NCBI GenBank assembly: GCA_025449735.1
Contig: JANWIV010000002.1
Location: forward strand, 186,001-250,000
From: Candidatus Microgenomates bacterium
Lineage (GTDB): Bacteria > Patescibacteriota > Microgenomatia > UBA1406 > HO2-37-13b
Reading direction: 5' to 3'
Length of the DNA: 64,000 bases
The notes under the pieces are model-generated. The model made no database searches. It had not been told where the DNA came from and saw only the letters and a list, made by a program, of their open reading frames with translations. Positions 10,511 through 56,188 of this stretch are shown piece after piece (position 1 is the stretch's first letter; each line of letters opens with the position of its first letter). Position numbers and translations under genes: made by a program.

Positions 10511-10530
10511 TTTTTGTATAAAATTTTTTA

Positions 10531-10558
10531 GATTTTCATTTTCAATTTTAATTTAACA
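10531..10558. repeat. Weak heptad array N (4x7) between rplU and rpmA
   Basis: GATTTTC ATTTTCA ATTTTAA TTTAACA. Confidence 0.45.
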
Positions 10559-22733: not shown

Positions 22734-23285
22734 ATGAATACAACTTACATAATTATCGGAATCATTGCCGTTATCGCCATATATATCGTCGGTATCTACA
22801 ATGGACTGATCACTTTAAGAGCCAGAATCAAGGAAGCGCTATCTGGAATTGATGTTCAACTTAAGCGAAGAATTGATCTTATTCCTAATTTGGTAGAAAC
22901 CGTCAAAGGTTATGCCAAGCATGAGAAGACTGTCTTTGAAAATGTCACCAAAGCGAGGAGTCAGCTAATCAAAGCCGGTGGACTAGAAGAAAAAGCCGCT
23001 GCCAACAATATGTTGACTGATGCTTTAAAAAGTCTTTTTGCTGTCGCGGAAGCCTATCCTGATCTTAAGGCGAGTACTAATTTTCAAGATTTGCAGCGTC
23101 AACTTGAGGATACAGAAGACAAGATTGCTTATAGTCGCCAGTTTTACAATGCTAATGTCTTGGCTTACAATACCAAAATAAAGGTGGTACCGAGCAATTT
23201 CATAGCGCAAATGTTTGGCTTTACCGAAGAGCAATTTTTTGCTGCTACTGAGGAAGAAAGAAAGAATGTTAAAGTAACATTCTAA
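22734..23285 (+). CDS. lemA: LemA family protein
   Basis: [39 protein letters not shown]. Confidence 0.95.
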
Positions 23286-23286
23286 T

Positions 23287-23360
23287 TTGAAAGTTGAAAT
23301 TTGAAAATTGAAAATCATTTTTCATCTCTCATTTTTCATTTTTCATTTTTCATATTTTTC
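23287..23360. repeat. Heptad array A (TTGAAAN x4 | ATTTTTC-type x5-6), inverted halves
   Basis: TTGAAAG TTGAAAT TTGAAAA TTGAAAA TC ATTTTTC ATCTCTC ATTTTTC ATTTTTC ATTTTTC. Confidence 0.85.
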
Positions 23361-23363
23361 ATC

Positions 23364-24257
23364 GTGACAATCTACAGCCAAATTACCGGTAATAAAATTA
23401 AGACTTACTTAATTCTTGCCCTGTTTATGGGGTTGGTATTTACTTTTTTTTATTTTTTAGGGGCTTATTTTGGCAACCCAAGTACCTACTTCTTGTTTGG
23501 AATGACTTTTTCTTTAGTTTCCGGCTTGGGAAGCTATTTTTATTCTGATAAATTGGTGCTCGCCATGGCGGGCGCCAAGCCTGCTAACAAGAAAGAGAAT
23601 TTTGATTTTTATACTGCGGTAGAAAATATGTCTATTGCGGCTGGGTTGCCGAAGCCGAAACTATATGTGATTGAAGACTCGGCAATGAATGCTTTTGCTA
23701 CCGGGCGCGACCCTACCCACGCTGTCGTCGCCGCGACTACAGGACTTTTATCCAAACTAGATCGAGCCGAGGTAGAAGGGGTAATCGCTCATGAAATGAG
23801 TCATATCAAAAATTATGATATGCTCGTTTCAACAATTGTGGCGGTCTTGGTAGGGACTTTGGTTTTTGTTGCTGATTGGGTCTCAAGAAGCCTTTTTTGG
23901 GGAGGGGGAGATAGCGACGACAGTCGCGGTAATGCAATTGGTATGGTAGTGTTTATTATTTTTCTAATTATTACTCCTATTTTGGCGACATTAATTCAGC
24001 TTTGTATTAGTCGCAAGCGCGAACTTTTGGCTGATGCCACCGGCTCACTGCTCAATCGCAATCCAGATGCACTCGCCAATGCGTTGATCAAAATCTCCGG
24101 TGATCCACAGCCTTTGATGCGAGCCTCAAATGCGACTGCTCATCTCTTTATTGACAACCCATTTAAGAATCGATCAAAAAAAGCCAGTTTCATTGCTGGT
24201 CTTTTTTCCACCCACCCACCGGTTGAAGAGAGAGTAAAGCTCTTACGAGCTATGTAG
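23364..24257 (+). CDS. htpX: HtpX-like zinc metalloprotease
   Basis: GVIAHEMSHIKNYD; likely GTG start 23364 just after heptad array A. Confidence 0.92.
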   Translation: MTIYSQITGNKIKTYLILALFMGLVFTFFYFLGAYFGNPSTYFLFGMTFSLVSGLGSYFYSDKLVLAMAGAKPANKKENFDFYTAVENMSIAAGLPKPKLYVIEDSAMNAFATGRDPTHAVVAATTGLLSKLDRAEVEGVIAHEMSHIKNYDMLVSTIVAVLVGTLVFVADWVSRSLFWGGGDSDDSRGNAIGMVVFIIFLIITPILATLIQLCISRKRELLADATGSLLNRNPDALANALIKISGDPQPLMRASNATAHLFIDNPFKNRSKKASFIAGLFSTHPPVEERVKLLRAM

Positions 24258-24285
24258 TATGTAATATGTAGTACGAAAATACAAG
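24251..24285. repeat. Heptad array B (TATGTAG type, 5x7)
   Basis: TATGTAG TATGTAA TATGTAG TACGAAA ATACAAG, ends at nth ATG. Confidence 0.8.
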
Positions 24286-25120: not shown

Positions 25121-25432
25121 ATGAAGCCAAGTCAGAAAATAACCAAAGTCGAGGTTGAACAAATTGCAAAACTGGCAAACCTATCGCTCTCTCCAGATGA
25201 AGTTGAAAAATTCCCCAGCCAACTTGAGGAAAGCTTGGAATATGTCGAAAACTTGCAGGAAATCGATACTAGCCAGGTCCCCGAAAACTACTTTACTACC
25301 CCACTGAAAAATGTACTCGCTGAGGATATTGTTGATGAGTCGATTATGTTGACTCAGGCAGAAGCACTAAAAAATGTCAAGAATACCAAAAGAGGTTATT
25401 TTGTTGTCAAAAGGATAATTCATGAATCATGA
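25121..25432 (+). CDS. gatC: Aspartyl/glutamyl-tRNA amidotransferase subunit C
   Basis: VEQIAKLANLSLSPDEVEKFPSQLEESLEYVENLQEIDT; gatCAB order. Confidence 0.93.
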   Translation: MKPSQKITKVEVEQIAKLANLSLSPDEVEKFPSQLEESLEYVENLQEIDTSQVPENYFTTPLKNVLAEDIVDESIMLTQAEALKNVKNTKRGYFVVKRIIHES

Positions 25433-25455
25433 AAAGTGAAGCATGAATCATGGAG
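25421..25455. repeat. Heptad array C (CATGAAT type, 5x7) across gatC stop/gatA start
   Basis: CATGAAT CATGAAA AGTGAAG CATGAAT CATGGAG. Confidence 0.8.
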
Positions 25456-26844: not shown

Positions 26845-28204
26845 ATATATTCCAGTCATTGGCTTGGAGATCCATGTTCAACTAAAAACAAAATCAAAAA
26901 TGTTTTCCCGTTGTAGCGCTGACTGGTTTGGCAAAGAGCCAAACACGGTAGTCGATCCAGTAACTTTAGGTCTGCCTGGGGCATTGCCGGTACCGAACAA
27001 AAAAGCGGTAGAGCAAGCAATACTTGTTGGAATGGCTTTAAACTGCGATATTGCCAAGGTTTCTAAATTTGACCGCAAACATTATTTTTATCCTGACTTA
27101 CCAAAAGGTTATCAAATTAGTCAATATGATCAGCCCCTTGCAAAGCAAGGGAAATTCGAAATTCGAAATTCGCCCGCCCTGAGCGAGGCCGAAGGGAAAT
27201 TCGAAATTGAAAAAACGATTGAAATTAAACGAGTTCATTTGGAAGAAGACACCGGCAAACTCATTCATGAAGGTAGCGATACGCTCGTCGATTTTAACCG
27301 CGCCGGGGTGCCCTTATTAGAAATTGTGACTGAGCCTGATTTTGATAGTAGTGATACAGTTAAGTATTTTCTAGAAGAGCTGCAGGTATTGATGCGACAC
27401 TTGGGTGTGTCGGATGCCGATATGGAAAAAGGCTCAATGCGCTTGGAACCAAATATCTCGCTACGCGAAGTAACAAGTAACAAGAAACAAGAAACAAATT
27501 CGGACAATTTACCAAAATACAAAGTAGAAATTAAAAATATTAATTCATTCCGGTTTGCTAAAGCGGCGATTGATTATGAACTAGCTCGTCATCAAGAGCT
27601 TCTTGAAAAAGGAGAGACGCCGGAGCAAGAGACTCGCGGTTGGGACAGTGTACATAAACGTACGGTCAGCCAGCGAACCAAGGAAGGGGAGGCTGATTAT
27701 CGCTATTTTCCCGAGCCCGATATTCCACCAATGGAATTTAGCGATGAAGATTTAAAAAAGATTAAAGAATCTATGCCCGAGTTACCTCAAGATCGATTAA
27801 ACCGTTTTGTCTCCCAATATGGTATTAAACATAGTGATGCCTTTACCATTACAAGGAATTTGAAATTAGCTGATTATTATGAAGCAGTATGCAATCTCAT
27901 CGAGAATAAACAATTTGTGGCTTCTGTCATTGTTAATAAAAAGCTATCAACAGATCATAGTGCAGAGGAATTTGCCAAAGCAGTAATAATAATGGCAAAA
28001 CCTAAAGAAACGGATGTTGATATGCTAGAGCAGGCTATAGATCAAGTCTTCTCTCAAAACAGCTCTGCAATTGCGGACTTCAAATCCGGTAAAGAAAATG
28101 CCATGCAGTTCTTAGTGGGTCAAGTAATGCGGGAACTCAAGGGCCAAGCCGATGCCAATCAAGTCAAGGAAGCAATTATGAAGAGATTAGAAAGCGAGAA
28201 ATGA
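26837..28204 (+). CDS. gatB: Aspartyl/glutamyl-tRNA amidotransferase subunit B
   Basis: GLEIHVQLKTKSKMFSRC, HYFYPDLPKGYQISQYD, VEIKNINSF. Confidence 0.97.
   Translation: MSKYIPVIGLEIHVQLKTKSKMFSRCSADWFGKEPNTVVDPVTLGLPGALPVPNKKAVEQAILVGMALNCDIAKVSKFDRKHYFYPDLPKGYQISQYDQPLAKQGKFEIRNSPALSEAEGKFEIEKTIEIKRVHLEEDTGKLIHEGSDTLVDFNRAGVPLLEIVTEPDFDSSDTVKYFLEELQVLMRHLGVSDADMEKGSMRLEPNISLREVTSNKKQETNSDNLPKYKVEIKNINSFRFAKAAIDYELARHQELLEKGETPEQETRGWDSVHKRTVSQRTKEGEADYRYFPEPDIPPMEFSDEDLKKIKESMPELPQDRLNRFVSQYGIKHSDAFTITRNLKLADYYEAVCNLIENKQFVASVIVNKKLSTDHSAEEFAKAVIIMAKPKETDVDMLEQAIDQVFSQNSSAIADFKSGKENAMQFLVGQVMRELKGQADANQVKEAIMKRLESEK
27151..27209. repeat. Heptad array D (GAAATTC x3, 24-nt GC palindromic unit, x2) inside gatB
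   Basis: GAAATTC GAAATTC GAAATTC GCCCGCCCTGAGCGAGGCCGAAGG GAAATTC GAAATTG. Confidence 0.85.
27468..27502. repeat. Heptad array E (AAGTAAC/AAGAAAC, 5x7) inside gatB
   Basis: AAGTAAC AAGTAAC AAGAAAC AAGAAAC AAATTCG. Confidence 0.8.
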
Positions 28205-28207
28205 AAT

Positions 28208-28242
28208 ATTTTACATTTTACTTTTTACATTTTACATTTTCC
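28208..28242. repeat. Heptad array F (ATTTTAC type, 5x7) between gatB and dnaE
   Basis: ATTTTAC ATTTTAC TTTTTAC ATTTTAC ATTTTCC; ends 3 nt before dnaE ATG. Confidence 0.85.
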
Positions 28243-31749: not shown

Positions 31750-32475
31750 ATGTTGCATATCAATATTAAACCTGATGTGATCTTTCACCTCGCTTCCTTT
31801 CCCGTCTCAAACACCCTTCTTGCTAGCACCATTGTGGTAGTGCTTTTTTTATTTTTATCTCTATATGTCTCCCACACCGGTAGAAAGTCAACTCTTGCCT
31901 TTCTGATTCGATATATCTGTTTCAAACTTAATGATTTGATTAACTCGATTCTAAAAGATAAGACTAAAGAGTATTTCCCATTACTAGCGTCGCTATTTCT
32001 TTATATATTATTTTCAAATTGGCTGGGTTTAATTCCTCCAGTAGGGAGTTTGATCGTCGCTGATGTACACAGTCATGAGGTGCCACTGCTTAAGGGTAGC
32101 ACTGCTGACCTAAATACGACGCTTGGTTTAGCAATTTTAGTGTTTGTCGTCTTGCAGATAAGCGGTATTAAATATCTTGGTTTAGGTGGATATGGTGGTA
32201 AATTCTTCAATTTCAAGAGTCCGATTGATTTTTTTACTGGAATATTAGAGCTTGTATCGGAGGTATCAAAAGTGATATCATTTGCTTTTCGACTATTCGG
32301 AAATATATTTGCCGGGGAGGTCTTGATTTTGGTAATGGTTTTTTTGATTCCGGTGTTGGCATCATTTCCTTTCTTAATGCTTGAGATATTTGTGGGTTTT
32401 ATACAAGCGCTTGTTTTTATGATGTTAACCGCCGTATTTTTACAAGTCGCAACTACTGGGCATCATGAAGTATGA
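31750..32475 (+). CDS. atpB: F0F1 ATP synthase subunit a
   Basis: SKVISFAFRLFGNIFAGEVLI and GFIQALVFMMLTAVF. Confidence 0.95.
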   Translation: MLHINIKPDVIFHLASFPVSNTLLASTIVVVLFLFLSLYVSHTGRKSTLAFLIRYICFKLNDLINSILKDKTKEYFPLLASLFLYILFSNWLGLIPPVGSLIVADVHSHEVPLLKGSTADLNTTLGLAILVFVVLQISGIKYLGLGGYGGKFFNFKSPIDFFTGILELVSEVSKVISFAFRLFGNIFAGEVLILVMVFLIPVLASFPFLMLEIFVGFIQALVFMMLTAVFLQVATTGHHEV

Positions 32476-32519
32476 AGCTGGTAACATGAAGCACAATATT
32501 TCATGATTCATGTTTTAAG
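32464..32519. repeat. Heptad array G (CATGAAG type, 8x7, inverted halves)
   Basis: CATGAAG TATGAAG CTGGTAA CATGAAG CACAATA TTTCATG ATTCATG TTTTAAG. Confidence 0.8.
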
Positions 32520-32803: not shown

Positions 32804-32873
32804 AAAATACGATACATGTAGTATGTATTACAAGTAAAAACTTGTATTTCGTACTACATATTACATATTACAT
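32804..32873. repeat. Heptad array H (10x7) forming an inverted repeat between atpE and atpF
   Basis: AAAATAC GATACAT GTAGTAT GTATTAC AAGTAAA AACTTGT ATTTCGT ACTACAT ATTACAT ATTACAT. Confidence 0.85.
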
Positions 32874-32881
32874 TTTTATTT

Positions 32882-33388
32882 ATGGAAGGATTAGGAATCG
32901 ATATTAGACTAATGTTTGCTCAAATTATTAATTTTGGGCTATTTTTCTTTATTTTCAAGCGATTTATAGCGCCCTCATTTTATAAATTTATTGAGAATGA
33001 AAAGCTAAAGGAACAAGAAAAGGATCGATTACTCGCTGAGATGGAAAATAAGCATGCGGAAATTGATAAGAAAGGTAAGCAAATCATCAAAGAAGCCCAT
33101 GATAATGCTAGCGTGATATTAGATGAGGCAAAAGAGGAGGCAAAGAAATTAAAAGAACAGACCTTGAGCGATGCCAAGAGTGAAATCAAACAACTCAAGG
33201 AAAAGCTGAATAAGCAATATGAAGAAGATAGCAATAGTTTAAAGAAGGATTTGAAAGAGAGTATTATTGTCTCAAGCACCAAGATGGTAGAGCTGGTTTT
33301 GCCTGATCTACTCGACAAAACAATGCAAAAAAAGTTGACCGAATCAATTGTTAAACATCTTTCCCAGAAGAAGCTATATGAAAATTGA
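32882..33388 (+). CDS. atpF: F0F1 ATP synthase subunit b
   Basis: N-terminal TM and long charged coiled coil, operon position. Confidence 0.9.
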   Translation: MEGLGIDIRLMFAQIINFGLFFFIFKRFIAPSFYKFIENEKLKEQEKDRLLAEMENKHAEIDKKGKQIIKEAHDNASVILDEAKEEAKKLKEQTLSDAKSEIKQLKEKLNKQYEEDSNSLKKDLKESIIVSSTKMVELVLPDLLDKTMQKKLTESIVKHLSQKKLYEN

Positions 33389-39021: not shown

Positions 39022-39152
39022 AGCACTCGACGCTCAAAGTAAAAATTAAAAAATAAAAGTGTTAAGATTCAGATTAAAGTTTAAAAATGAAGCTAATAAT
39101 CTCAATTTTTCATTCTAAATTTTGCATTTTAAATTTGAACACCGAGTGTTGA
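39022..39152 (+). repeat. AT-rich expansion of a domain I helix in 23S rRNA with heptad array I (39105-39139 5x7)
   Basis: ATTTTTC ATTCTAA ATTTTGC ATTTTAA ATTTGAA within CACTCG..CGAGTG stem. Confidence 0.75.
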
Positions 39153-39712: not shown

Positions 39713-39817
39713 CAGCTCACCGTAATAATCCCGATTTATCGGGAATGAAATCTTGCGCCGAAAATGATCGAGGCTAAAACAACACACCGAAGGTGGAGAT
39801 GCTTGTCCTTTGGACAA

Positions 39818-39936
39818 GAAATTCGAAATAAGAATATCGAAATACGAAACAATACCAAAATTCTAATTTTCTAATGTTTAAAACATTTGGATTTTAGATA
39901 TTTGAATTTGTTTTGAAATTTGGATTTAGAAATTCG
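39818..39936 (+). repeat. Heptad array J (17x7=119 nt) inserted in a domain III helix of 23S rRNA
   Basis: GAAATTC GAAATAA GAATATC GAAATAC GAAACAA ... GATTTAG AAATTCG between CTTTGGACAAG and CTTGTCC. Confidence 0.85.
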
Positions 39937-40688
39937 AACTTCTTGTCCAGAGGACGAGTGTGGTAGGGGAGCGTCCCGTTTTCATTGAAGGTGAACCGTG
40001 AGGTTTGCTGGAGAGGACGGGAGTGAGAATGCTGGCATGAGTAGCGATTCTCCCGGTGAAAATCCGGGATGCCGAAAGCCCAAGGTTTTCTGCGCAACGT
40101 AAATCGGCGCAGAGTTAGTCGGATCTAACCGCGGCACGTTTGGTGCCGGGGGATGTACAAGCCGTTAATATTCGGCTACTGTTCTATCCGCGTTATTACC
40201 TCTATGGTGACGGAGTATGACTTGACGGAGCCTTCTATATGGGGGTTCAAGCAGTAAAAATTTAAACTAGAGCTGCAAATACAATTCCAGTCTTTGATTG
40301 GGAGAGTCTGATCAGTTATGTTTCCAGGAAAAGCCGTATGAGGGAGTTGATAGTATATCCGTACCGCAAACCGACACAGGTGGGCAGGTCGAGTAGACCG
40401 AGGCATACGAGCAATAGTGGTTTAAGGAATTCGGCAAATTAGCTGGGCGTACCTTTGGAAGATGCCCTCCCCGACGTAAAAATCGGGGTACAACAAAAGA
40501 CTTTCATCTAACTGTTTAGCAAAAACATAGCTCCCTGCAAACCGGAAACGGGAAGTATAGGGGGTGATGCCTGTCCAGTGCCGGTAAGTTAAGAATTGAG
40601 GTTGACCTTATGTTTACATGAGAAAGGCTTTGATTTAAGCTCCGGTGAACGACAGCGGTAACTCTGACCGTTCTAAGGTAGCGTAGTC

Positions 40689-41317: not shown

Positions 41318-41622
41318 AAGACAGTTCGGACTCTATCCGGTGCAAGCGTCTTGATTCTTGAGGGGGCCTTCTTCTAGTACGAGAGGACCGAAGAGGGGGA
41401 ATCCCTAGTGTACCAGTTGTCACCAAATGGCATCGCTGGGTAGCTACATTCCCACGTGATAAGTACTGAAAGCATCTCAAGTACGAAGCATACCCCAAGA
41501 TGAGGAATCTAAGTCTCCAGGCAGATGACCTGGTTGATAGGCAACAGGTGTAAGAGCAGTAATGCTTTTAGCCGAGTTGTACTAATGACATTCTATGTCC
41601 CACAAGTTGAGATTGAACACAA

Positions 41623-41692
41623 CATGAAGCATGAAACATGAAACATGTAACATAAAACGTGAATCATAAATCATGCAGCATGTAGCATAAAA
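41623..41692. repeat. Heptad array K (CATGAAA type, 10x7) after 23S rRNA
   Basis: CATGAAG CATGAAA CATGAAA CATGTAA CATAAAA CGTGAAT CATAAAT CATGCAG CATGTAG CATAAAA. Confidence 0.9.
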
Positions 41693-41693
41693 A

Positions 41694-41722
41694 GGCGGTA
41701 GGGGAAACTCTGCCGTTTTTTT
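41694..41722 (+). terminator. Rho-independent terminator of the 23S transcript
   Basis: CGGTAG-GGGAAACT-CTGCCG followed by T7. Confidence 0.75.
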
Positions 41723-41768
41723 GTGCCCACACTGTTAATTTGTTAGATACTTTACGTAACTCAGATAA

Positions 41769-41810
41769 TGTCATTCTGAGGAGGAGCCAAGAGACGACTT
41801 GAGAATCTCA
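41769..41810. repeat. REP-like sequence TGTCATTCTGAGGAGGAGCC...GAGAATCTCA
   Basis: Resembles, from memory, a dispersed GTCATTCTGAG...GAATCTC repeat seen in many bacterial genomes. Confidence 0.4.
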
Positions 41811-42073
41811 TACAGTTTTTCTTTTACAATTTTTGGTGCTTCTTTCCCCCTCTGAATTATTGATGCGCGAAGTGAGAAATCTTTGATATTGACAATTTGA
41901 ATTCTTGACATAAAAAGAGGTGTGAAAAATCCCATCTCAAAAATATCAATTTATCAAAATATCTTAAATCAAAAACTTCTCATTTCCCACATCGGTTATT
42001 TTTCAAGAATACTAAAGTTAGCAAAATGATTTATTTTATGGAATTAGAAATTAGAGCAATTAGGAATTCTAAA

Positions 42074-42108
42074 ATGTTTCATGCTTCATGTGCCATGATT
42101 CATGCTGT
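42074..42108. repeat. Heptad array L (ATGNTTC type, 5x7) before topA
   Basis: ATGTTTC ATGCTTC ATGTGCC ATGATTC ATGCTGT; inverse of array K consensus. Confidence 0.8.
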
Positions 42109-42121
42109 ATACTAACTAGCT

Positions 42122-44218
42122 ATGAAGCTAATTATTGTCGAGTCCCCTACCAAAGCCAAGACTTTTTCCAAATATCTTGATAGCAAGGACTATCAAATTG
42201 AGGCCACCATGGGCCATATAAGAGACCTTCCGGAAAAAAAAACTGGTATTGATGAGGAGCATAATTTCAAACCGGATTATGTTTTATCAGAAAAAAAACA
42301 AAAAACCATCGATATCATAGTTAAAGCGGCGAAGCGCGCCGATACTATCATTCTTGCTACTGATGCCGATCGTGAGGGGGAAGCGATTTCTTATCATATT
42401 GCTTTTATCTTAGGTCACATTAAAGAAAAATGGCCAAAAGCGACGGTTTCTGAGGGTAATGTTAAGCGAATTGTTTTTCATGAAATTACCAAAAGCGCGA
42501 TTTTAGAAGCGCTGAAAACACCCGGGAAATTAAACCTTAATCTAGTTGATGCCCAACAGGCAAGAAGAATATTGGATCGATTAGTCGGCTATAAATTGTC
42601 ACCCTTGCTTTGGGGTAAAATTGGCAAGCGTTGGCTTTCTGCCGGTCGCGTGCAAACCGTCGCTTTGCGGTTTATTGTCGAGCGCGAGGCAGAGATCAAG
42701 GCATTCAAATCGATGTCTTTCTATCGAGGTTTGGGTCTTTTTGCTGATGAGCACAAAATTCAAGTCGAAGCCAAGCTAGTCGCTCAAGATAGTGAGTCAT
42801 ATGAAAAGAAAACTACCATCAAGCTATTTGATGGTGATTATACCTATGGTCAGACTAGAATTGATAAGGCTTTGTCTCAAAAAATTGAGCAGGAGTTAAA
42901 GGCCGATTCTTTTTCGGTCACTGACATTGAGGAGAGAGTCTACAAACGCACTCCACCACCGCCTTTTACCACCTCCACCTTGCAACAGCAGGCCGCGTCA
43001 AAACTGGGTTATTCCTCAAAAAACACCATGAGACTCGCTCAGCAGTTATATGAGCGCGGTCTGATTACCTATCACCGAACCGACTCGATTATTATGTCCG
43101 AGAAGTTTCTCAGTAAATGTCCAGACTATATTAAGAAAGCTTATGGGGATGAATATTTAGTTGAAAGCGCTCGTCGTTATTCTGGCAAATCGAAGCTAGC
43201 TCAAGAGGCCCATGAAGCAATAAGACCGACTCATCTAAAATCTTCAATTGAGATAAAAGGCAAGCTCACCACTCAACACCAAAAACTTTATGAACTAATT
43301 TTTAATCGCGCTATTGCCACTCAAATGAAGGAGGCGATTATGAAATCAGTTAAGCTGAAAATTGAAAGTGGCAAGAAATATCAATTTGAGTCCGGTTTTG
43401 AAGAGACAATGTTTGACGGCTATCTAGTCCTCTATAATCCTAAGAAAAAGCCACCAGTACCGGATATCAAAAAAGGCTCCAAACTTGATTTAGCGACTAT
43501 CAATTTTGAGGAAGCGGCTACTGAACCACCACCAAGATATAATGAAGGCTCTTTGATTCGCACCCTGGAGCGCGCTGGTATTGGTCGACCATCGACCTAT
43601 GCGCCGACAATTAGCACTATTCAGGAGCGGCAGTATGTGGAGAAAATAGAAGCTCGATTCCATCCGACTATTTTGGGAATAGCGGTTTGTGATTATTTGG
43701 TGTCGGAATTCGACAAATTGTTTGAAATTGACTTTACTGCCAAGCTTGAAGATGATCTTGACAACATTGCTCATGGCAAAGAAGATATGGTTGCGGTCAT
43801 TAGGGGAGTCTATGATCCGATGATGAAAACATTGGAAAAAGCCAAAACAAAAAAGGGTCATATTAATGTGCAGGAGACACTTGACGAAAAATGCCCTGAA
43901 AGCGGTCATCCCTTACTGATGCGATTCTCTCGCCATGGTAAATTTATCGGCTGCTCAGGTTGGCCCGATTGCAAATACACCCGGTCTTTTGTCGAAAAAG
44001 TCGGTAAACAATGCCCGAAATGCAAGGTTGGCGAGGTTATAGTGAAGTTAACGAAGCGGCGTCGCAAATTTTTCGGTTGCAGTCGTTATCCCGAATGCGA
44101 CTTTGCCGCTTGGCGGGAGAATCAGATTGATACCTGGACACCAGAGCAAGATGCGAAAATGAAAGAAGCTTACGAAAAATCAAAAGCAAAGAAAACCGCA
44201 GAAAAAAAACCTGAATAA
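42122..44218 (+). CDS. topA: DNA topoisomerase I
   Basis: IVESPTKAKTFSKYL, ATDADREGEAISYH, C-terminal Cys4 zinc ribbons. Confidence 0.97.
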   Translation: MKLIIVESPTKAKTFSKYLDSKDYQIEATMGHIRDLPEKKTGIDEEHNFKPDYVLSEKKQKTIDIIVKAAKRADTIILATDADREGEAISYHIAFILGHIKEKWPKATVSEGNVKRIVFHEITKSAILEALKTPGKLNLNLVDAQQARRILDRLVGYKLSPLLWGKIGKRWLSAGRVQTVALRFIVEREAEIKAFKSMSFYRGLGLFADEHKIQVEAKLVAQDSESYEKKTTIKLFDGDYTYGQTRIDKALSQKIEQELKADSFSVTDIEERVYKRTPPPPFTTSTLQQQAASKLGYSSKNTMRLAQQLYERGLITYHRTDSIIMSEKFLSKCPDYIKKAYGDEYLVESARRYSGKSKLAQEAHEAIRPTHLKSSIEIKGKLTTQHQKLYELIFNRAIATQMKEAIMKSVKLKIESGKKYQFESGFEETMFDGYLVLYNPKKKPPVPDIKKGSKLDLATINFEEAATEPPPRYNEGSLIRTLERAGIGRPSTYAPTISTIQERQYVEKIEARFHPTILGIAVCDYLVSEFDKLFEIDFTAKLEDDLDNIAHGKEDMVAVIRGVYDPMMKTLEKAKTKKGHINVQETLDEKCPESGHPLLMRFSRHGKFIGCSGWPDCKYTRSFVEKVGKQCPKCKVGEVIVKLTKRRRKFFGCSRYPECDFAAWRENQIDTWTPEQDAKMKEAYEKSKAKKTAEKKPE

Positions 44219-56089: not shown

Positions 56090-56109
56090 TTATTGATATA
56101 ATTAAACTA

Positions 56110-56188
56110 CATGAAGTATATATCATGAATCGTGAAGCATTATAATCCAGATAATGTTTCAGGCTTCAAGTTACCTGTTTCATGAATA
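56110..56188. repeat. Heptad array M (CATGAAG type, inverted halves) between pyrG and rplS
   Basis: CATGAAG TATATAT CATGAAT CGTGAAG CATTATA ATCCAGATA ATGTTTC AGGCTTC AAGTTAC CTGTTTC ATGAATA. Confidence 0.75.

Follow-up and report, generated by a model that had tools for sequence, protein, structure and literature searches.

What are the degenerate rows of seven-nucleotide units that begin just past the 3′ end of a 23S rRNA gene in this bacterium, and what has placed similar rows at so many other sites? The DNA analysed (the window) was a stretch of 64,000 nt corresponding to bases 186001-250000 of contig C2, one of four contigs that make up a genome of 822 kb with 88.7% completeness; genome-wide scans took in 807 kb of the 822 kb, the remaining 14.6 kb lying in contig C4. 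The best match of the host AtpD was from Candidatus Roizmanbacteria (77%), and a TopA query for relatives gave no match; judging from its sequence, the host is probably a Roizmanbacteria-like member of the Patescibacteria, of the Microgenomates type. A 5S rRNA was not identified by Rfam at the gathering threshold in the region following the 23S gene (window 41600-42100).

Heptad arrays in the window and in the host genome

The row next to the 23S rRNA gene (Array K) consisted of ten diverged CATGAAN heptads, exactly as had been read from the letters alone. It had a period-7 score of 33 over 41623-41688, far ahead of every other period (best other period 4), and was found without a separate inverted arm; its predicted fold is that of a direct array folding on itself, because CATG is self-complementary. 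The hairpin past it is GC-rich and carries a T run. The original prediction had listed 13 further places with the same period and other words, 10 of which were significant at period 7, and thus 11 of the 14 places, Array K included, exceeded their shuffles (Table 1). Two others, 39818 and 56110, failed as arrays and were retained only as arms of predicted hairpins. The place at 10531 was rejected as a member of the family.

Table 1. Heptad arrays and related features in the window. Shuffles, number per 1000 that reached the period-7 score; z, score of the predicted hairpin (background -0.28, sd 1.17).
Feature	Coordinates	Strand	Array scored	Shuffles	z	Location and remarks
Sequence outside the family	10526..10554	.	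10531	147		Period 6 outscores period 7
Palindromic heptad element AATTTGA ... TTTTCAT	23284..23357	.	23287	0	-2.7	Between two co-directional genes
TATGTAG array	24251..24273	.	24251	0		Gene junction
CATGAAN-word array	25415..25452	.	25421	0		gatA upstream junction
GAAATTC x3	27151..27172	.	27151	0		In gatB; part of in-frame insertion missing from solved GatB sequences
AAGTAAC/AAGAAAC array	27468..27497	.	27468	0		In gatB; second in-frame insertion, 9 residues relative to 3al0_B
ATTTTAC x4	28208..28240	.	28208	0		Fills gatB-dnaE gap
CATGAAN-word hairpin, heptads eroded	32462..32516	.	32464	9	-2.5	
Hairpin with TACATAT/ATATTAC heptads	32818..32882	.	32804	0	-5.0	Gene junction
Period-7 sequence in 23S rRNA insertion	39036..39140	+	39105	1	-0.5 (stretch alone)	Folds as hairpin only with flanks
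Second 23S rRNA element, CGAA word, CGAAATACGAAACAAT ... TTTGTTTTGAAATTTGGATTTAGAAATTCGA hairpin	39817..39937	+	39818	64	-3.4	
Array K	41621..41692	.	41623-41688	0 (dinucleotide)	-5.7	23S rRNA 3′ end (41602) on one side, hairpin at 41689-41722 on the other
CATG-word array, opposite orientation	42055..42113	.	42074	0		Upstream of gene at 42122
Eroded CATGAAN-word palindrome	56108..56187	.	56110	146	-4.5	

Comparison of GatB with 3al0_B placed the gatB elements in frame within the protein. A short GC-rich palindrome was also present in the first gatB insertion, beside the three GAAATTC units (about 27173-27197), where it encodes SPALSEAEG. In the 23S rRNA gene, the first insertion opens at about 39017, corresponding to position 583 of the Rfam LSU model, and 39817-39937 appears to be an insertion as well, given a gene length of 3160 versus the 2925 positions of the model. 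In addition, another kind of dispersed element, about 175 nt long, has a copy at 41821-41994 of the window (C2:227821-227994), which paired with C3:337444 at 75%; by resemblance this copy belongs with a linked repeat family of 19 members (CTTTTACAATTTTTGGTGCCTGAGTTCC...), which is the largest in the host, GC-richer, strongly folded and devoid of heptad arrays.

The period-7 excess over shuffled sequence that had been set as a check was present in the host genome: 28 strong intergenic arrays had period 7, 15 had period 14 and 6 had period 21, as compared with 0-2 for each of the other periods from 4 to 24 and none in the shuffles. At a looser threshold, 72 intergenic and 47 coding arrays were obtained. 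Four-fold runs of a trinucleotide numbered 495 at a spacing of 7 versus 15-23 at spacings of 5, 8, 10, 11 and 13, and three successive CATGNAN units were matched 58 times versus once in the reversed control. An artefact of coding or of AT-richness was discarded as the source of the period, since the other periods and the shuffles were without the signal. Arrays were enriched in co-directional intergenic regions (44 of 306) and depleted in divergent ones (3 of 114).

The predicted recurrence of a few word classes at unrelated loci held as well, as four words accounted for 63 of 101 host arrays versus 30 in a column-shuffled control, and in the relative G021 for 105 of 127 versus 28; each genome thus uses few words. 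The four largest dispersed repeat families of G021, with 22, 18, 11 and 9 members, consisted wholly of heptad arrays, and heptad families of 12, 8 and 7 members were found in the host. In G021 it was also noticed that the final 1.8 kb of a reading frame of 1657 residues (L171, G021:C1:14-4987) contain some dozen heptad arrays.

Anatomy of the palindromic elements

Most arrays proved to be the arms of imperfect palindromes some 70-150 nt in length, an organization that had escaped the original prediction along with the limited number of words per genome and the presence of elements in rRNA and coding genes. A partner of the same word in inverted orientation within 110 nt was found for 45 of 107 arrays in G021 and for 23 of 74 in the host, versus 4 in each reversed control; some arrays had a single arm only. 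The best-defined family in the host was the CAA family, with 12 linked copies, in which an arm reads CAAGnnn-CAAGnnn-CAATnnn-CAAGnnn-CAAACAA-... and is followed by its mirror image. In the predicted folds 88% of CAA/TTG cores and 50% of spacers were paired, with 204 core-core pairs versus 4 core-spacer pairs, and the predicted hairpins of four elements had z of -4.2 to -4.9; the CGAA family folded more weakly (-1.5 and -2.4). Alignment of the CAA copies revealed that one outer arm was nearly invariant, including its spacers, and that elsewhere chiefly the cores were kept.

Blocks of CAA cores in the host were stepped by 4 nt (14 cases) or by 4+7 nt (27 cases), and none by 3, 5, 6, 7, 8, 9 or 10 nt. 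The corresponding pattern 7,7,4,7,7, with its spacers free, had 138 matches (the sum over a per-genome table) in 36 of 380 genomes drawn phylum-wide, with no match to the reversed pattern and 1 match when a more permissive pattern had a step of 5 instead of 4; this fixed 7/4 spacing recurs phylum-wide. Among 50 named genomes, matches numbered 17 in a Falkowbacterium, 9 in a Parcubacterium and 1 in each of two further Patescibacteria, and there was none in roughly 25 named genomes of other phyla. The 4-nt step was absent from G021, which is rich in other words, and is therefore confined to some families. Short GC-rich palindromes (CCTGCCTGTCGGCAGACAGG and others) were observed nested in heptad elements at G000:C3:169743, C3:178266 and C2:148442, twice at one same position in the CAA arm.

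Gain of elements and of single units

Orthologous junctions were compared in genus g16 (18-19 species), in place of the host's own lineage. The ribosomal-gene junction S3-L16 measured 4-18 nt in 16 of 18 species; in the other two it holds heptad palindromes unrelated to each other, about 70 nt long in G061 and about 103 nt in G062. Another such palindrome, about 124 nt in length, was present in the S17-L14 junction of G027. Array lengths had been described as often exact multiples of seven, and judged against these whole-element gains the description was only partly right: one junction showed a clean increment of 7 (16 to 23 nt), another differed by 22 nt. Two loci of G021 had 119 nt in common at 95%, with matching ends AAATCC...GGATTT and unrelated flanks, and two host loci had 152 nt in common at 93%, again with unrelated flanks. 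At two recent copy pairs, whose AT-rich flanks limit the test, no target-site duplication was seen.

In our view the arrays probably belong to miniature palindromic elements that a factor moves, with local turnover of units on top. An arm is a row of short cores placed every 7 nt and the opposite arm its reverse complement; one strand would then fold into a long hairpin in which core pairs with core and the spacers make regular internal loops, and in the CAA family two cores abutting at the 4-nt step would make one longer helix. Whole elements would be copied to new sites, be it at gene junctions, in rRNA or at positions within genes that tolerate them, and arrays would additionally gain single heptads in place. 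We infer that the moving is done by a factor that acts in trans on the single-stranded hairpin and reads one core per 7 nt, and that the words may differ through co-evolution of element and factor, as for REPINs and RAYTs. A common generating mechanism, as raised originally, is thereby supported in kind, with whole-element copying plus gain of 7-nt units; its machinery was not found; neither the Y1 loci nor the same-word arm pairs of G021 yielded a mobilising gene or an autonomous partner. In the 420 kb of G021 covered by a list of same-word arms at most 3 kb apart, a list of arms and not of the genes between them, no gene-carrying transposable unit was recognised.

Copying of whole elements does not account for everything, as the units at the L18-S5 junction come one at a time: one heptad in G023 (16-nt gap), two in G055 (23 nt) and three in G061 (33 nt). 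Perfect CATGAAG arrays were also observed to open contigs C2 (1-119, about 16 units) and C3 (1-84, about 12 units) in orientations compatible with joining; the assembly was probably interrupted here by a single long array. Together with the L18-S5 series, these arrays imply that single-unit expansion also happens. It could be argued that replication slippage on heptanucleotide simple repeats is the sole process, inverted pairs and shared words being by-products. As cited in PMC4679880 and PMC4692102, heptamers are the commonest long simple repeats in most prokaryotes, and 7 nt was suggested by Mrazek in 2007 to be the stretch contacting the polymerase; the contig-end arrays and the clean step of 7 between G023 and G055 are what slippage would give. 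However, slippage gives neither inverted arms, a fixed +4 step and precise copies with unrelated flanks, nor the gain of a palindrome of about 70-124 nt in one step, and the small number of words per genome calls for copying. Pure slippage is therefore unlikely, although it ranks first among the remaining alternatives, followed by protein-binding arrays and then in-place rewriting.

The region downstream of mreB was the most puzzling. A period-7 array occupied the same slot in 14 of 19 species, with AATTTCT, AAAGTTA, AAAGTCA, AATTTTC, TTTTTAG and CTAGTGA among its words, and the distance from the stop codon to TATAG was 73-74 nt in 10 of 19 species. Array-free species had nearly the same spacing (74, 81 and 82). 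Neither simple insertion nor simple slippage would lead one to expect this, and a slot of near-fixed length with differing words, kept by species lacking the array, speaks against independent insertions; the least bad reading is that of old, length-constrained arrays whose words turn over through slippage, through template switching or because they co-evolve with a reader. The mreB-tagA intergenic region (L191-L223), about 240 nt and conserved in one genus, was also seen to contain, at nearly constant spacing, TATAGTA motifs and TTTGAACAAAA that may be promoters, with the array slots immediately upstream of the TATAG motifs. Around mreB, G061 and G060 (L206, L207) were about 97.6-97.8% identical over 3.8 kb, as compared with about 80% in other syntenic regions, due to either recent recombination or mixed contigs.

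The near-fixed distance of the slots from TATAG in congeners would suit operator- or centromere-like sites at which an oligomeric protein binds one core per 7 bp. By analogy, such a protein might resemble Omega of pSM19035, a ribbon-helix-helix protein binding contiguous heptads (for Omega heptads, see PMC9499535). Yet arrays are rare between divergent genes and enriched between co-directional ones, for which reason a promoter or operator role was ranked low, and they are found within coding genes and 23S rRNA as well, with words that change between congeners; we regard such sites as a doubtful explanation, less likely than slippage. The same slot can alternatively be viewed as an old quasi-palindrome rewritten in place by template switching between arms or heptads, with length and site being maintained. 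The 73-74-nt slots with differing words agree with this, as do the reverse-complementary words in the left and right slots of G023 and G055, but the left and right slots of G058, G025 and G046 have unrelated words, and neither gain at an empty site nor dispersed near-identical copies would be explained. Rewriting by itself is thus improbable, slightly more so than binding sites, and could act in addition to copying.

Relation to known repeats and significance

Movement of the elements as REPINs by RAYT (Y1 tyrosine) transposases was largely refuted and is highly improbable: although the element shape is REPIN-like (PMC3116915) and 21 of 30 relatives, host included, have Y1_Tnp genes, the flanks of these genes carry short palindromes of other kinds, e.g. 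AATCCCGGGATTGA, rather than heptad arrays, in none of 20 Y1 loci (90.6 kb, 15 scattered arrays in all) was the gene bordered by an array in the manner of REPs, and G036 has arrays with no Y1 gene detected. The RAYT-like Y1 genes at G000:C1:66340-67002 and L319-L338, flanked by AATCCCGGGATTGA or AACCTACGAGGTT, are apparently REP/RAYT systems of this Patescibacteria order in their own right.

Miniature palindromic elements moved by a factor remain the reading we prefer, and they resemble several known repeats in part. As the original prediction stated, they form a dispersed, degenerate and often inverted period-7 family to which STRR are the nearest and yet distinct relatives. STRR of heterocystous cyanobacteria and the TAACTGA and GGGAATC arrays of Beggiatoaceae, Xanthomonas and Nostoc share the seven-nucleotide unit, intergenic location, dispersal and several words with the host arrays, but the accounts given of them are mostly of direct tandem arrays with one or few fixed words, although some Xanthomonas heptamer arrays are inverted pairs (PMC4692102), as here. 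Unlike STRR, the host elements have degenerate units, inverted arms and a defined architecture with the +4 step, occur also in genes and rRNA, and differ in word between related species at the same site. Near-perfect direct repetition of one word was seen only in the CATGAAG arrays of C2 and C3, and the host, by its AtpD, is no heterocystous cyanobacterium.

With REPINs they share the arrangement as short inverted pairs, genome-specific word families and a place in small non-coding spaces; their arms are, however, rows of heptads and not 16-mer REPs, and the same repeats did not flank a single-copy RAYT gene. Like MITEs they are miniature and non-coding, with matching inverted ends as in G021, many dispersed copies and nested insertions. 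Unlike in MITEs, the 7-nt pattern runs through the whole arm and not just its tip. An autonomous partner was not recognised among the same-word arm pairs listed for G021, nor a target-site duplication at the two recent copy pairs with their AT-rich flanks. Rickettsia palindromic elements, repeats about 100 nt in length, likewise lie in frame in protein genes, as the GatB insertions do here. To our knowledge no 7-nt periodicity has been reported for them, and their host phylum differs from Patescibacteria.

Taken together, the elements constitute a mobile-looking class of palindromic repeats, similar to MITEs and REPINs, rather than plain slippage of the STRR type. It is possible, and we put it forward tentatively, that they represent a class of mobile DNA of their own, common in Patescibacteria and defined by geometry and not by sequence. 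A factor would recognise a hairpin bearing one core per 7 nt, with a single 4-nt step in one family, and the word would change along with that factor, giving the same site and geometry with a different word per species. Taken separately, heptamer repeats and miniature palindromic elements are both known; a description of elements of this kind in Patescibacteria, or of a word-changing 7-nt geometry across many families of one phylum, was not found in the incomplete literature searched.

That bacterial genomes have an excess of heptamers has been on record since 2007, with a guess at polymerase slippage as the sole explanation, and for the heptamers of Beggiatoaceae it was stated that "no mechanism is evident". 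For assembly, a long perfect array lies at two contig ends of the host. For annotation, it matters that proteins in streamlined genomes acquire in-frame peptides and C-terminal tails from such elements, as rRNA acquires insertions. In Patescibacteria the unit of seven is accompanied by a fixed architecture, insertion of whole elements and empty sites for comparison, which makes the questions of why seven and what moves them testable.
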